From a virus, in the IMG/VR virus record IMGVR_UViG_3300032245_000866, positions 1 to 23,550 of that record: a DNA stretch of 23,550 nucleotides; one strand, given 5' to 3'. Positions 8,911-21,234 of this stretch are shown here, in pieces. How positions within the stretch are numbered: position 1 is the stretch's first letter; the number at the start of each line of letters is the position of its first letter. A program made the translations under genes and the position numbers. The notes under the pieces are model-generated. The model was not told where the DNA came from. It did not search any database and was given only the letters and a program-made list of their open reading frames with translations.

Positions 8911-9026
8911 GGCATAATGTCAATCTGGGCTTGGAGAACGGCGATCTGCGTTTGCACAACAATTAACCCCATAAAAGTCGTTGCCGGGGTTGTTTCGCCG
9001 GTTGTTCCGTTAAGGGTAATCGTCAT
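8907..9026 (-). CDS. 39-aa micro-protein with fiber N-terminal motif
   Basis: The short ORF reads MTITLNGTTGETTPATTFMG and then LIVVQTQIAVLQAQIDIMP. Its start overlaps the stop of the upstream fiber gene (ATGA) and its stop overlaps the cupin-gene start (ATGA), so it sits seamlessly in the operon. The LTLNGTTGE stretch is shared with the 230-aa fiber-like protein encoded at 10757-10065. The second half is hydrophobic and heptad-like (IAVLQAQI) and could trimerise. It may be a remnant of a fiber gene or a real mini-protein; the intact coupling favours the latter. Confidence 0.65.
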   Translation of the reverse strand: MTITLNGTTGETTPATTFMGLIVVQTQIAVLQAQIDIMP

Positions 9027-9799
9027 GCCCAAGTTCCTACGCTAGTGTTCGCGCCGGAAACGCCAATCGGGTAGATCATAAAATACGACCCCGCAGTTGT
9101 GGTATACGCACCGCCAGGGGCTGCGGAAAGAGTGTATTGCGGAATAAACGTGCCGCCAGCGTTAACCGACACCGTGCCTTTGTAAGTAATAATAAAAGTA
9201 TTGGTTGCAGACGTTGCGGCGGCCATTACAACAGTGGCCGATGCCGTGTTAAATGAACCCATATTTGATGCCGCGCCTGTTGGTAAGGCTGCTGTGGAAG
9301 TTACATAAACGGCTTCATATAAAATGTTATTTAAAGTGGCTGTGCCACCAAAACCATGAGACAGAGTGTGGGATGTTGTGCCAGCAGTTTTTGTTAAAGT
9401 AAAATTTACTTCAAAAGCATAAACTGTGCTTGCAGAAAGACTTACACCAACACCAAACACACTCTGTGCGCTTGTCGCATCTGCGCCAACAACGCCAGAA
9501 TTGAGACGAAAAAACTGCGCGCCAAGGATTACGCCGCGCTGTGTGCTTTGCGGTGTTCCGTAGAAAACCTTGCCGTCATACTCAACCGCGCCAGCAGTTG
9601 CTGATGTCAGATTAGTACCAGATGCAAATTTTAATGGTGCAACAGACGCAGTACCAGCAACAAGTCCACCAGTAAATGTGGTTGTACCGGTGACAGATAA
9701 ATTCTGCCCAAGAGCAACACCACCGCTTGTATCAAGCGTCATGTTTACCGTAGCGGATGACGGCTCTTGGATTTGAGTTGTTTTAAGAAGTGCTGGCAT
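9023..9799 (-). CDS. Tail fiber / receptor-binding-like protein, paralogue A
   Basis: I start it at the ATG at 9799 (GGGGAA upstream) rather than the in-frame TTG at 9805. The product has 258 aa, Thr-, Ser-, Ala- and Gly-rich, all-beta in character. The middle ([18 protein letters not shown], then [19 protein letters not shown]) is a segment common in phage fibers. The C-terminal block ([18 protein letters not shown], then IYPIG) is shared with the 339-aa neighbour. It is probably a virion surface fiber or decoration contacting the host; which receptor cannot be told. Confidence 0.78.
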   Translation of the reverse strand: MPALLKTTQIQEPSSATVNMTLDTSGGVALGQNLSVTGTTTFTGGLVAGTASVAPLKFASGTNLTSATAGAVEYDGKVFYGTPQSTQRGVILGAQFFRLNSGVVGADATSAQSVFGVGVSLSASTVYAFEVNFTLTKTAGTTSHTLSHGFGGTATLNNILYEAVYVTSTAALPTGAASNMGSFNTASATVVMAAATSATNTFIITYKGTVSVNAGGTFIPQYTLSAAPGGAYTTTAGSYFMIYPIGVSGANTSVGTWA

Positions 9800-9801
9800 G
9801 T

Positions 9802-10068
9802 TCAATTCCCCGGTTTGGGATATTTATCTTTTACGGATTGAACCAATGCTTTCCAGCCGTCATACCCGCCATGAAAAAGAATATCAAATTGATCCGCAAA
9901 AGACGGGTATTCCCTAGCTCGGTCATATTTATACTGATCAGGGTCAACCCAAGCATCCACAAGGGCCATGTCAAGTTCGACTTGATTACCGTCTTTATCA
10001 AAAGCTCCGGCGGTATCGTCCACCGATACAACTTGAGGATAAAGAGCATAGATTGCGTTATGGTTCAT
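9802..10068 (-). CDS. Putative tail fiber assembly / chaperone-type protein
   Basis: The product has 88 aa. Its start overlaps the preceding fiber-gene stop as ATGA. The N-terminus MNHNAIYALYPQVVSVDD and the C-terminal FADQFDILFHGGYDGWKALV plus VKDKYPKP form a pattern found in many small proteins that follow phage fiber genes and are often annotated as tail assembly or chaperone proteins. A direct fiber-folding role is inferred from the position between two fiber genes. Confidence 0.7.
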   Translation of the reverse strand: MNHNAIYALYPQVVSVDDTAGAFDKDGNQVELDMALVDAWVDPDQYKYDRAREYPSFADQFDILFHGGYDGWKALVQSVKDKYPKPGN

Positions 10069-10768: not shown

Positions 10769-11788
10769 TTACGCCCAAGCGCCTACGATATTATCAGAAC
10801 CTGATGCTCCAATAGGGTAAATTGAAAAACTTGAATTAGCGTTTACGCTATACGCACCACCGGGGGCAGCAGATAGTTGATACTGCGGGATGAATGTTCC
10901 ACCAGCGTTAATTGAAACGATACCATTTACCCTGAAATATCTTGCAATTGCCGCTGCGGTTGTTGCCGATGCTACTACTGTTGCAGATGCTTGCGTAATA
11001 GCCGTTCCTGTAACCGCCGTGTCAGTAAAATTAAAAGTTGATTGCGAACCTGTAGAAGCAGCAATAATTAGATAAGCAATGCTATTTACGGTTGCTGAAC
11101 CGCCAAACAGAGTACTAAGTGTATGTGATGTAGTTCCCGCAGATTTTGAAATTAGAAAGTCAGCTTCAAATCTATATACGGTTGATGATGATAAAGTCAC
11201 GCCATACATAGATTGAATAGTAGTGGAAGCGATGGTTTGGCTATTATTGACAGTGTAAGTTCCTGCACCGCCAGTACCTGTGCCAAGAGCAGTAATGTAT
11301 GTGCCAGCAGTTATGCCTTGTGCAGCTAGAAACTGACCAACCGAAAAAGTTCCAGTAACAGTGCCGCCAACGGTCAATGTCGTTCCAGAAATTGAAGATG
11401 CCGTTGAGTTCCCGTTTACAAAAAATGGTTGCACAACATTAGAACTTATACCAGCAGTTGTTGTCTCTCTGCGGAAATATTGCATCCCTGGAACAACGCC
11501 GCGCTGCGTTCCTTGCGGAGTAGCATAAAAAACTTTGCCATCATACTCAACCGTACCATCCAAAGCTGTTGTTAAGTTTGTGCCTGCGGTAAAATCAAGC
11601 GGCGCAACGCTTGCCGTGCCTGCGGCCAAAACAGCGCCTGTAAGCGTAGGTGTAGTAATAGCAGGGCTTGCGCTTATCATAAGCGTGCCGGTAGACGCAG
11701 GGAGCGTAAGCGTGTTGGTGCCTGCTACCGCCGGAGGCGATAGCGTGATTTGACCGGAGGTGGCCCCTGCAAGAGAAATATTGCCCAT
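10769..11788 (-). CDS. Tail fiber-like protein, paralogue B with inserted 59-aa module
   Basis: The 339-aa product is a paralogue of the 258-aa protein encoded at 9799-9023. Both share [36 protein letters not shown] ([10 protein letters not shown] in the other) and the C-terminal [17 protein letters not shown] block ending in GxWA. It differs by a 59-aa module between the two shared parts. The N-terminus ([20 protein letters not shown], then [12 protein letters not shown]) is a common fiber start. It is all-beta and likely surface-exposed. The DNA looks more AT-rich than the neighbouring 295-aa gene. Confidence 0.8.
11216..11392 (-). repeat. Shared 59-aa fiber module, copy 2
   Basis: Module from ISGTTLTV to ASTTI within the 339-aa fiber protein. 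It aligns without gaps to the copy at 12233-12057; I count 34 of 59 residues identical. Landmarks are [16 protein letters not shown] and SQT-ASTTI. It is absent from the paralogous 258-aa protein. Confidence 0.85.
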
Positions 11789-17615: not shown

Positions 17616-18371
17616 TTAGCGGGATCTTGCCGCTTCCATCTTCTTTATCTGCCGTAACCGTTCCGCAGCGATCCACTCTGCCGTGCTCATGGCTTTCATT
17701 GAGCGTGGGTCAGTCGTATCGTATGCAGGCGCTCCACTGGTTTTAGCAGTGACCGGAGATATAGGAGCTGGTGCGCTCGATGATTTTTTGACGGGCGGAT
17801 CAGCGGCCAATTTGGCTTCGACCTTCCCAATCTCTTTTGCCTGCAAAAATGGCGCGAGCTTTGAGATCCGGTCAGCTTCTTTGGGGTTTGCCCCCAGATA
17901 ATAAGCCACTTCTGGCCCAATATCAGACGCCTGAATTGTTTGCGCCATAACGGTTGTGATTGGGAGAGACGGGTTATACGCGACTTGTTCAAAGTCCTCG
18001 TATTTGTTCCGTGCCTCTTCTTCACGCTCGCTATAAGCGTCAAGGATCTCACGTTGCTGTTTCTGCATCTCACGCTGTCTGAGAAGCTCTTCAGCCTTTT
18101 GCGTTGCTAATGCTTCAGCATACGCATCTGGGCTGTTGAACTTGTCGGGCGTGACCGCTTCGACAGGTGGAGGCGGTGGGGTCTGCTCTCGCATGGCCCT
18201 ATCGCGTTCCAGCTTACGTTCAAATTTAGCAAGCCTTTTAGTTACAATGGCATCGACTTCCTCTTGTGTGAAAGTCTTTGACGCCTCCGGCTGTTGTTCG
18301 ATTGGAGCTTCAGGAGCCGCCGTGGCTTCTGGTTCCGGCGCGGTTACCTCCGCTAAGGTTTCATCTGTCAT
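17616..18371 (-). CDS. Scaffolding protein
   Basis: The product has 251 aa, highly charged. The N-terminus is acidic and Pro/Ala/Glu-rich (VTAPEPEATAAPEAPIEQQP). Next comes FTQEEVDAIVTKRLAKFERK, a motif common in phage scaffolds, then a long coiled-coil-like region rich in Gln/Glu/Arg. The C-terminus is basic (AERLRQIKKMEAARSR), as expected for coat binding in P22-type scaffolds. It lies directly upstream of the coat gene, as gene 8 does before gene 5 in P22. It would direct procapsid assembly and then leave. Confidence 0.85.
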   Translation of the reverse strand: MTDETLAEVTAPEPEATAAPEAPIEQQPEASKTFTQEEVDAIVTKRLAKFERKLERDRAMREQTPPPPPVEAVTPDKFNSPDAYAEALATQKAEELLRQREMQKQQREILDAYSEREEEARNKYEDFEQVAYNPSLPITTVMAQTIQASDIGPEVAYYLGANPKEADRISKLAPFLQAKEIGKVEAKLAADPPVKKSSSAPAPISPVTAKTSGAPAYDTTDPRSMKAMSTAEWIAAERLRQIKKMEAARSR

Positions 18372-18414: not shown

Positions 18415-18684
18415 TTATTCGTAACTTATGGTGGCGTTTACGGTGCCTCCGAGTACGACGTAAAGTCCTTTGTTCAAATAAATGCCTTCAGCGGCATTGA
18501 ACAAATAGTTTGTAGCCGCCGCAGGCGTAAACGTACCAACTACGGTCGTTGTGGTGCCCTTAGCGTCGGTATCATAGACGGTAATGGTCGGCGTGCTACT
18601 AGCGGCGCTTACGAAGATTGCCTTTAGCTTTGCGGGAGCCGTTTTTACCTGAGAAGTAGCTGTGATGTAGGAATACTGAGCCAT
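18415..18684 (-). CDS. Small beta-rich protein, possibly structural
   Basis: The 89-aa product (MAQYSYITATSQVKTAPAKL start) is Thr-, Ala- and Val-rich, with alternating hydrophobic strands (LKAIFVSAASSTPTITVYDT) and ends in GTVNATISYE. It has an RBS (GTGAGG) and starts 7 bases after the preceding stop. Similar small beta proteins are found among phage head genes. No defined function is recognised; a capsid-associated role follows from the position between portal and scaffold. Confidence 0.7.
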   Translation of the reverse strand: MAQYSYITATSQVKTAPAKLKAIFVSAASSTPTITVYDTDAKGTTTTVVGTFTPAAATNYLFNAAEGIYLNKGLYVVLGGTVNATISYE

Positions 18685-18691
18685 AAAAGCC

Positions 18692-19054
18692 TCACGACAA
18701 GAATTTAAGTTTGTAAAGGGTTGTTAGATAAAGTTCGACAATATTGTCGATCAATTGCTGAAGCGAAGTGTCTTTGCGGTCGACAACGTCGTAGCGCATG
18801 TCTTCGATTTCTTTGAGCTGATTTTCAAGAAAATCGACCACATTAGCCGTTTTGTTGTGCGATTGGAGCGAAATGCCACCAATCAGGCCGTAGCGGCCCT
18901 GATAGGCTTCTGCAAATGCGTCTGCCGCGTCTACAATGCCTTCGTAGAATTTTTGAAGCGCCTTGTGCTTGGCGTAACTGCGCGTGTTGAGATGGACCGA
19001 GTGGGTCACATCCCGTGCGAGAAACAGCATTCCTACAAATTCGGCGCATTTCAT
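18692..19054 (-). CDS. Helical DUF5856-like protein with Dps-type ligand spacing
   Basis: The product has 120 aa, predicted all-helical. The N-terminal half (FVGMLFLARDVTHSVHLNTR and on through FYEGIVDAADAFAEAYQGR) looks like a phage family I recall as DUF5856. H18, H30, D45 and E49 have the same spacing (12, 15, 4) as the ferroxidase ligands H31, H43, D58 and E62 of Listeria Dps. The D-x-x-A-E and (L/F)Y residues nearby also agree, while the fifth Dps ligand (D47) is Gln34 here. A ferritin-like fold and perhaps iron binding are my inference. The start overlaps the portal stop as ATGA, so it is made with head proteins. Confidence 0.8.
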   Translation of the reverse strand: MKCAEFVGMLFLARDVTHSVHLNTRSYAKHKALQKFYEGIVDAADAFAEAYQGRYGLIGGISLQSHNKTANVVDFLENQLKEIEDMRYDVVDRKDTSLQQLIDNIVELYLTTLYKLKFLS

Positions 19055-21234
19055 TGTGGTATTCCTTGCGAAGGCGGCATCATAGCCTGCATTGGCTCAT
19101 TAGGCAACTCGCCCGGCAATTCTTGCCCTGGCATCTCTGCGATGAGGTCGCCGCTGGTAATCATGCCATGTACAGTGCCCAAAACAATGTCTTGGATTTG
19201 CTCGGGCGACATGGACGCTTGGACCGCGCTGATACGCTTGGTTTCCGCGTCATAGGCTTTAATAGTTGCTTCGAACTCTTTGACGGCGAGCGTTTGGACT
19301 TCAACCGACTTGGTGACGTTTTGGAACATCCCGTGCATTTGGTCGAGTTCTTGCGAGAGGGCTTGAATTTTTTGCTCGGCTGCTTGGAGAGCGGGCGACT
19401 TGTCGCTGTTCTCGAAGAGCTTGGGGTCCATCGACTTGGCGATGCGGTTGGAGAGTTCTGCTGCGCCGGGCCAATCCATGTGCTTGACAAACAAGTCGCC
19501 AGCCACGCCCCAAAGCTGCGGATTGCCTTGTAGCAGTTGCGCCATACCATCAAGCGCCTCCTGACGTTTTGTCATGTAGCTTGGGCCTGACGTGACGACG
19601 ACGTCGTAACGGCCAACTGACGGATTGTAGATCTTGTCGATCTCGATATTGTTCTCGTCACGGATGACCTTGACGGCTTCCGCTTGCATGGGGTCGATCT
19701 TCGCCATGCTTGTCTCGCCATCAAGGTTGATGATGCGAGCAATACGCTGTGTGTCGTAGATCTTCGGGATCAGATCAACGATTTGACGCGTTGTATAACG
19801 GATCGCACGAGCGAGATTGTCCACGTAATGATACGTTCCAGTGTCTGCTTGGCGTTCGCGAGCAAGGATTGCACGTCCAGACCGTTCATTTGATTGCGCT
19901 CCAAGGCTTGGGTCGTACTGACCGGTAGTTGCTTTAATGTCGTCAGAAGCGCCCATTTTGGCCTGAATTAGGCCGGTTTGGGCCATTGGAGGCATAGCGC
20001 GCGCGGGCAACGGCAAAACGCCGCCCTGACCGTCTGTAACGTCAGGATTTACCTCCAAATACGGCCAATTGTTCGTATTGGCCGTCTTCCATTGCATTTC
20101 ATAGCCTTCAAATTGGCCGCCATAGCCGATAAACGGCGCTTTTGGGGCCAATGCAAGCATCTCAGTCTCCTGAGACACCCAATAATTGTACATACGTTGC
20201 GCGTCTTTGGCGTTTCTGATGATGCCGGACACAAAAATGCGGCCATCGACCTCATATTCGTTGCCCACGACGCGGATGACGGGAATCCACTTGCCTGCCC
20301 AATCGCTTTCTTCAAGCACTTCGTAGCCGTTTGTCTTCATCCACTTGATTTTGCGGACCTGAACCGTGCGGCTGCGGATGGGCTTCACGCCCATTGCCTT
20401 CATTTGCTTGTCTTCAGGGCTTCCATCAAAATATGATTGGTTGCCTGGGTACAAATTGAGCTTCTGCGGCTCATAGACCGCGTAAAAATACTCAGCGATG
20501 CGGACGACTTGTTCGTTGATCCAGTTGGTCAGGGAGTCGTCGCCGACGCCTTGCACCTGAATGGACGATGCCGGCATCGCATTCGGGAACTGACGCTCAT
20601 ATTCGTCGCGTGTCAGGTCTTCCGTAATGAAGCAATACTCGGCATCCGCCCCGCAAGGGTCTTGGATGGTCGGGTCCATGTACACACTGAACGAGTTACG
20701 GATACGGCCAATGCGGATGTCCTGTTCGAAGCTGTCATCCGTGCAGTATTCGGTCAAAATGCGGATATAACCTTCGCCGTATGTGACCTGATTTTCGCAT
20801 GCCGTGTCGTATGCCACGTCGGCGTCTGATGCGTACTCGATGTGCCGCACCATGCCGTCGAAAATCTCAGCCACCTTGGGGTCCGCCCGATCGTCCGCAG
20901 GGATGACCTTGCCTGATGGCCGGTTCTGGCGCTGGTCGTTCGTTACCTGGCGCACATGTTGTGGCAGCTTGTTGACTGTCAGGCACGGACGAGCGTTGAT
21001 AGTCTGGCCTTGCACCGAGCCGCGTGTCTGGAGCACGTCAGCCGGCCACTGCCACTGATTGTCCGGCGAGCCTGCGAAGAAGCGGAGGTCGTCCAGCTCG
21101 TCTTCGCGGCTTTCCGAATAGGCGCTGATTGCCATATTCAGGCGAAAGCGCATGGTTGCCATGACGTCAGAGTCTTTCGACCCGCCGTCGGCTACTTTAC
21201 CCGCTGTGCCTACGCCTGAATAATCGTTGTTCAT
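19051..21234 (-). CDS. Portal protein, P22 gp1-like
   Basis: The product has 727 aa, practically the length of P22 gp1 (725). Recognisable segments are the N-terminal RFRLNMAISAYSESREDELD, the conserved RPCLTVNKLPQHVRQVTNDQ and RQNRP stretch, DPTIQDPCGADAEYCFITED, and the Gln/Glu-rich helical C-terminus (LQAAEQKIQALSQELDQMHG) that would form the barrel-like extension. It forms the dodecameric DNA channel at one capsid vertex, binds terminase during packaging and later the tail. The start overlaps the stop of the 43-aa gene (ATGA), and its stop overlaps the next gene. Confidence 0.93.
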   Translation of the reverse strand: MNNDYSGVGTAGKVADGGSKDSDVMATMRFRLNMAISAYSESREDELDDLRFFAGSPDNQWQWPADVLQTRGSVQGQTINARPCLTVNKLPQHVRQVTNDQRQNRPSGKVIPADDRADPKVAEIFDGMVRHIEYASDADVAYDTACENQVTYGEGYIRILTEYCTDDSFEQDIRIGRIRNSFSVYMDPTIQDPCGADAEYCFITEDLTRDEYERQFPNAMPASSIQVQGVGDDSLTNWINEQVVRIAEYFYAVYEPQKLNLYPGNQSYFDGSPEDKQMKAMGVKPIRSRTVQVRKIKWMKTNGYEVLEESDWAGKWIPVIRVVGNEYEVDGRIFVSGIIRNAKDAQRMYNYWVSQETEMLALAPKAPFIGYGGQFEGYEMQWKTANTNNWPYLEVNPDVTDGQGGVLPLPARAMPPMAQTGLIQAKMGASDDIKATTGQYDPSLGAQSNERSGRAILARERQADTGTYHYVDNLARAIRYTTRQIVDLIPKIYDTQRIARIINLDGETSMAKIDPMQAEAVKVIRDENNIEIDKIYNPSVGRYDVVVTSGPSYMTKRQEALDGMAQLLQGNPQLWGVAGDLFVKHMDWPGAAELSNRIAKSMDPKLFENSDKSPALQAAEQKIQALSQELDQMHGMFQNVTKSVEVQTLAVKEFEATIKAYDAETKRISAVQASMSPEQIQDIVLGTVHGMITSGDLIAEMPGQELPGELPNEPMQAMMPPSQGIPQ

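Follow-up and report, generated by a model that had tools for sequence, protein, structure and literature searches.

A predicted minimal Dps-like mini-ferritin encoded beside the portal gene of a P22-like podovirus

The protein considered here has described relatives in several phages. In phage T4, lysis inhibition collapses slightly later when rI.-1 is overexpressed, and the slow growth that results from rIII expression is suppressed (Golec et al. 2010, cited after the review PMC6832632). A homologue is also present in phage RaK2, which is without T holin, RI, RI.1 or RIII (PMC3622015). A third relative, gp217 of Salmonella phage Sajous1 (Kuttervirus), was detected with 10 spectra in CsCl-purified virions and called a ferritin by Phyre2 in a 2024 study, whose authors cautioned that proteins with low spectral counts may be contaminants (PMC10892097). 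Infection by Kuttervirus relatives was unaltered in tonB and feoB host mutants (PMC10892097), which argues against a role for iron uptake in the entry of these phages. True Dps proteins are known from Lactobacillus phages and gut phages (PMC8008677), and the metal site of Listeria Dps is built from Asp58 and Glu62 of one monomer and His31 of its neighbour (PMC8389677). Our literature searches returned no paper on the family DUF5856 and none that treats rI.-1 together with Dps, and in the literature searched we did not find the link between DUF5856, T4 rI.-1 and the virion "ferritin" drawn. The first-pass annotation of this locus had named no described function for the family, a statement that needs amending in view of the modest published effect of rI.-1 on lysis inhibition and the presence of gp217, a predicted ferritin, in virions.

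The window, by which we mean the whole stretch of 23,550 nucleotides of viral DNA that was analysed, contains a 120-aa open reading frame whose limits had been given correctly in the first-pass annotation, to which we add the minus strand. Pfam and PHROG matches of the neighbouring genes likewise bear out its placement between portal and scaffold: the gene order runs from a P22-like portal through the DUF5856 gene, an 89-aa ORF and the scaffold to a P22-like coat (Table 1). The 89-aa ORF had no Pfam match and no convincing PHROG match. The overlap between the portal stop and the start of the DUF5856 gene recurs in 69 of 81 close loci, and the DUF5856 gene follows the portal in all 76 callable loci of the window's own lineage. 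We infer from the 4-base overlap that translation of the two genes may be coupled.

Table 1. Features of the portal-scaffold region of the window and of the predicted mini-ferritin
Feature	Coordinates	Strand	Basis
DUF5856 / phrog_858 gene, 120 aa, minimal Dps-like mini-ferritin (predicted)	18692..19054	minus	PF19174 E 2.2e-21, phrog_858 E 2e-26
Overlap of portal stop and DUF5856 gene ATG, 4 bases	19051..19054	minus	sequence
P22-like portal gene, immediately upstream of DUF5856 gene	19051..21234	minus	PF16510 E 2.2e-165
89-aa ORF between DUF5856 gene and scaffold	18415..18684	minus	no assignment by Pfam or PHROG
Head scaffolding protein	17616..18371	minus	phrog_8865 E 5.1e-27
Helix A, residues 3-21	18992..19048	minus	model
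Helix B, residues 27-55	18890..18976	minus	model
Helix C, residues 72-90	18785..18841	minus	model
Helix D, residues 96-118	18701..18769	minus	model
H18 codon, helix-A ligand of the first-pass annotation	19001..19003	minus	93% weighted; R or Q in some relatives
H21 codon, equivalent of Dps ferroxidase H51	18992..18994	minus	invariant; profile alignments
H30 codon, equivalent of Dps H63	18965..18967	minus	invariant; profile alignments
Q34 codon, position of Dps fifth ligand D67	18953..18955	minus	variable in family
D45 codon, equivalent of Dps D78	18920..18922	minus	invariant; profile alignments
E49 codon, equivalent of Dps E82	18908..18910	minus	invariant; profile alignments

We placed the protein in DUF5856 (PF19174) by a match of 77.1 bits that covers positions 1-94 of the 94 in the model and passes the Pfam gathering score of 34.6 bits; it also matches phrog_858 (E-values in Table 1). 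The phage Dps profile, phrog_3636, reaches it at E 0.008 and weakly matches 28 of 69 DUF5856 members, while E. coli Dps is a strong match to phrog_3636 and a weak one to phrog_858. The Pfam Ferritin family (PF00210, cut-off 24.5 bits) did not match the window protein, and the best DUF5856 member scored 12.4 bits against it.

T4 rI.-1 resembles the window protein in its full-length family match, its four invariant residues and its predicted bundle. The two differ in that rI.-1 belongs to the rI operon and has Asp at the position of the fifth ligand, whereas the window gene appears to be coupled to the portal and encodes Gln there. Sajous1 gp217 is also a DUF5856 protein (E 1.3e-28); aligned with the window protein over 118 columns, it shows 35% identity. 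Sajous1, however, is a myovirus with another gene order, and presence in the virion was measured for gp217. Just upstream of the Sajous1 DUF5856 gene lie the genes for two abundant virion proteins, gp214 and gp215 (L362 4642-7649), which belong to phrog_3867 and phrog_4048, respectively, both without an assigned function.

The first-pass annotation had staked its proposal on a four-helix bundle, and the window protein, modelled as a monomer, is confidently predicted to be one (mean pLDDT 93.6, pTM 0.88), with Dps the best match among solved structures. Dps proteins made up nearly all of the best 30 matches to the model in a Foldseek search of the PDB, with probabilities reaching 1.00 and TM scores reaching 0.74; the E-values were weak (best 0.057, none below 0.05). 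A single-sequence phmmer search of the PDB gave nothing useful, and Dps was reached by the family profile only. In that profile search HP-NAP (1ji4, E 2.3e-4) and several Dps lead when designed and coiled-coil proteins are set aside, and the lowest E-value, 2.6e-5, belongs to a designed protein that aligns in short repeats around helices C-D. The model of T4 rI.-1 is also a four-helix bundle (pLDDT 91.2), and its structural matches are a loose mixture of Dps, bacterioferritin and other helical bundles, so they support the bundle but not Dps specifically. Taken with the profile matches, we regard membership of the window protein in the ferritin superfamily as real and well supported. Matches to the window model in the viral structure library BFVD include crAss-like DpsA and giant-virus proteins, among them A0A481ZC29 (Pithovirus) and A0A7D3V608 (Fadolivirus), which have the same fold and no assigned function.

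The ligand residues required a correction. The first-pass annotation had read H18, H30, D45 and E49 as the equivalents of four Dps ferroxidase ligands at a literal spacing of 12-15-4, and these residues are indeed present at that spacing. Shuffling the protein's own residues produced the pattern with p = 0.0004 (0.04%), and among the 67 ORFs of the window (ATG start, at least 60 aa) this protein alone has it. However, every alignment that covered helix A paired H21 with the Dps histidine. The hmmsearch profile search of the PDB aligned H21 to the histidine of the HWN motif in HP-NAP, with a 3-residue gap in the A-B loop, and hhalign against E. coli Dps alone paired H21 with H51, H30 with H63, D45 with D78 and E49 with E82. 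The same pairing was obtained against ten Dps proteins (probability 94.2%, E 1.1e-7, 112 columns); a reversed Dps profile, run as a control, gave a probability of 0.7%. When six DUF5856 subgroups were aligned separately, five aligned over helix A, all pairing H21 with the Dps histidine, and the sixth aligned over helix B only.

Conservation gave the same answer. None of the 69 diverse relatives departs from H21, H30, D45 or E49, nor does any member of a set of 58 sequences that includes T4 and Actinomarina proteins, while H18 is present in 93% (weighted) and replaced by R or Q in some lineages. Invariance among homologues had been proposed as a check on the four residues originally named, and it is borne out for H30, D45 and E49 and not for H18; H21, which had not been named, is the invariant histidine of helix A. 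The Dps equivalence therefore stands for H30, D45 and E49 (H63, D78 and E82) and fails for H18, which we rejected as the ferroxidase histidine since the alignments pair H21 with E. coli H51 (Listeria H31) and H18 is variable. We also rejected a fixed 12-15-4 spacing as a family signature: among 248 unique proteins, 240 have it, five keep only 9-15-4, and three have neither, namely two partial sequences and a jumbo-phage copy in which the loop is extended by an insertion. The alignments indicate a true spacing of 9-15-4, the loop between helices A and B having three residues fewer than in Dps, and the exact 12-15-4 match is explained by a further histidine that the family has one turn before H21. 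The A-B loop length is itself not fixed, given that the jumbo-phage homologue (L088) has a four-residue insertion there. An exact match in residue spacing can thus select the wrong residue. The relatives came from viral contigs, named phages and genomes and were found by short peptide patterns. Since some of these patterns span the ligand motif, the search itself tilts the result somewhat towards absolute invariance, a bias that affects the difference between H21 and H18 less.

The fifth ligand of Dps, Asp67, is replaced by Q34 in the window protein, as the first-pass annotation had pointed out. Across the family this position is G in 77% (weighted) and Q, R, D, E or N elsewhere, with Asp in T4 rI.-1. 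The difference weighs less than it might seem, because Gln also occupies this position in Dps2 of Deinococcus radiodurans and in a Campylobacter phage Dps (L353, L354), so Asp at the fifth ligand does not strictly define a true Dps. Given this, and its variability in the family, Q34 neither excludes nor proves a ferroxidase site.

Bacteria use Dps to protect DNA through the oxidation of iron. Compared with the Dps family (E. coli Dps, Listeria Dps, HP-NAP, MrgA), the window protein shares the four helices, with profile homology extending from helix A through helix D, and the aligned H51/H63/D78/E82 positions, and Dps proteins are its best structural matches. It is nevertheless smaller (120 aa versus 167 in E. 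coli Dps), with the shorter A-B loop and a fifth ligand that is not conserved in its family. Many Dps proteins, though not all, have a basic tail for DNA binding; the window protein has none, its helix A starting at residue 3 and its pI being 6.05 (family median 5.6). In Dps the linker between helices B and C also forms a short helix, which lies at the two-fold interface. In our model the linker (residues 56-71) contains no helix of 4 or more residues, and therefore the Dps-type two-fold interface that the site needs may differ. True phage Dps proteins (phrog_3636; Lactobacillus and Campylobacter phages) are likewise phage-borne and have the same ligand residues, but they are full-size and match phrog_3636 and PF00210 strongly. 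By strict tests, then, the window protein is not a Dps, having no PF00210 match, no B-C helix and no tail, although by analogy it probably works like a small one.

We therefore favor reading the window protein, with a probability of roughly 0.6, as a minimal mini-ferritin of the Dps-like kind, encoded by a P22-like podovirus and having an iron site shared between subunits that is predicted to oxidise Fe(II). By analogy with Dps, H21 (with H30) of one subunit and D45 and E49 of its two-fold partner would form a metal site. This site would bind Fe(II) and then oxidise it, probably with peroxide, a putative ferroxidase activity that would damp Fenton chemistry during phage DNA replication and packaging. 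If coupled to the portal, the DUF5856 product would be synthesised late, and the particle may hold some copies of it, as seems to be the case for the homologue in Sajous1. With no basic tail and a short B-C linker, the protein is less likely to bind DNA in the manner of Dps or to build a full 12-subunit iron store. If the reading is correct, the family gains a chemical function that can be tested, in which iron is bound and oxidised at four named residues.

The DUF5856 family is matched in at least 1,379 sequenced phage records, T4-like phages among them, in which the gene (rI.-1) lies downstream of rI with a 4-base overlap. In Ackermannviridae it lies near the DNA primase; other groups have it by tail-fibre and endolysin genes (L094, L136) or close to a gene for an HNH endonuclease (L205). 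Candidatus Actinomarina has a chromosomal copy beside metabolic genes, such as a pyridoxal-dependent (Orn/DAP/Arg) decarboxylase, and it groups in the tree with viral contigs (L111, L117, L119). We sought a genomic partner common to the family in the compared loci and found none.

This spread bears directly on whether the protein could be a component of the virion or of its assembly, a ferritin-like bundle that serves the portal vertex or the building of the prohead and holds Zn, Mn or Fe as a structural metal, without redox chemistry. The 4-base overlap with the portal, the core presence of the gene in its lineage, the homologue in purified Sajous1 virions and the missing fifth ligand would all suit such a role. 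However, other lineages keep the site while the gene lies elsewhere (T4 rI, L094, L136, L205, Actinomarina chromosomes), so a portal-specific role cannot account for it, and we consider this explanation unlikely. The protein might instead be an accessory of lysis timing, modulating holin or antiholin by protein contacts, as proposed for T4 rI.-1, with the metal site secondary. We judge this quite improbable. Although rI.-1 overexpression affects lysis inhibition and rIII slow growth (PMC6832632), the T4 gene overlaps rI by 4 bases and the L136 and L094 copies lie near endolysin genes, the effects in T4 are small and were seen on overexpression, RaK2 lacks T holin and RI yet has a homologue (PMC3622015), the window gene sits in a head operon away from any lysis gene, and what is conserved is a set of metal-site residues rather than a contact surface. 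Despite homology to Dps, a DNA binder in many species, a DNA-binding or regulatory protein is barely credible, and we rejected the PHROG label "starvation-inducible transcriptional regulator" as a function, given the missing basic N-terminal extension and the pI values above and given that the label is a name inherited from Dps, behind which we know of no test.

Damping of iron and peroxide damage, as in the mini-ferritin reading, fits all lineages and contexts better than a portal- or lysis-specific role. A broader proposal, which we offer as tentative and rather doubtful, is that minimal Dps-like ferroxidases are widespread in viruses, either late and portal-coupled or packaged in virions, and control iron and peroxide around phage DNA, with T4 rI.-1 tying iron or redox state to the timing of lysis. 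If the mini-ferritin reading is right, many phages would need to control iron and peroxide, and metal-site mutants would offer a way to re-examine the lysis phenotype of rI.-1. New here are the corrected site, its invariance, the link among DUF5856, T4 rI.-1 and Sajous1 gp217, and the chromosomal Actinomarina branch.

Several minor observations accompany these results. Actinomarina (OCS155; L335-L347) is a streamlined marine actinobacterium; its DUF5856 protein, a cellular branch of a mostly viral family, is 135 aa long and has Gln instead of H18. An apparent betaproteobacterial prophage (L327, CP070643.1), a fragment holding a portal end, DUF5856 and tail genes, was rejected as such: runs of N flank this phage piece in a MAG chromosome, and it is probably a phage contig that was wrongly scaffolded. 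Two otherwise unlike phages have a phage GroES co-chaperonin gene close to DUF5856 (L083 6561-6809, L086 4907-5098). Between terminase and portal, the window encodes an 85-aa DUF6321 protein (PF19846, 21502-21759); in other phage groups, too, its homologues are found in the neighbourhood of DUF5856 genes, at 38 of 80 and 23 of 39 loci. Finally, the window ORFs at 9023-9805 and 10769-11788 are alike by eye, both containing the stretches YDGKVFY.TPQ..QRGV and AGTTSHTLS, and are probably paralogous tail-fibre domains.
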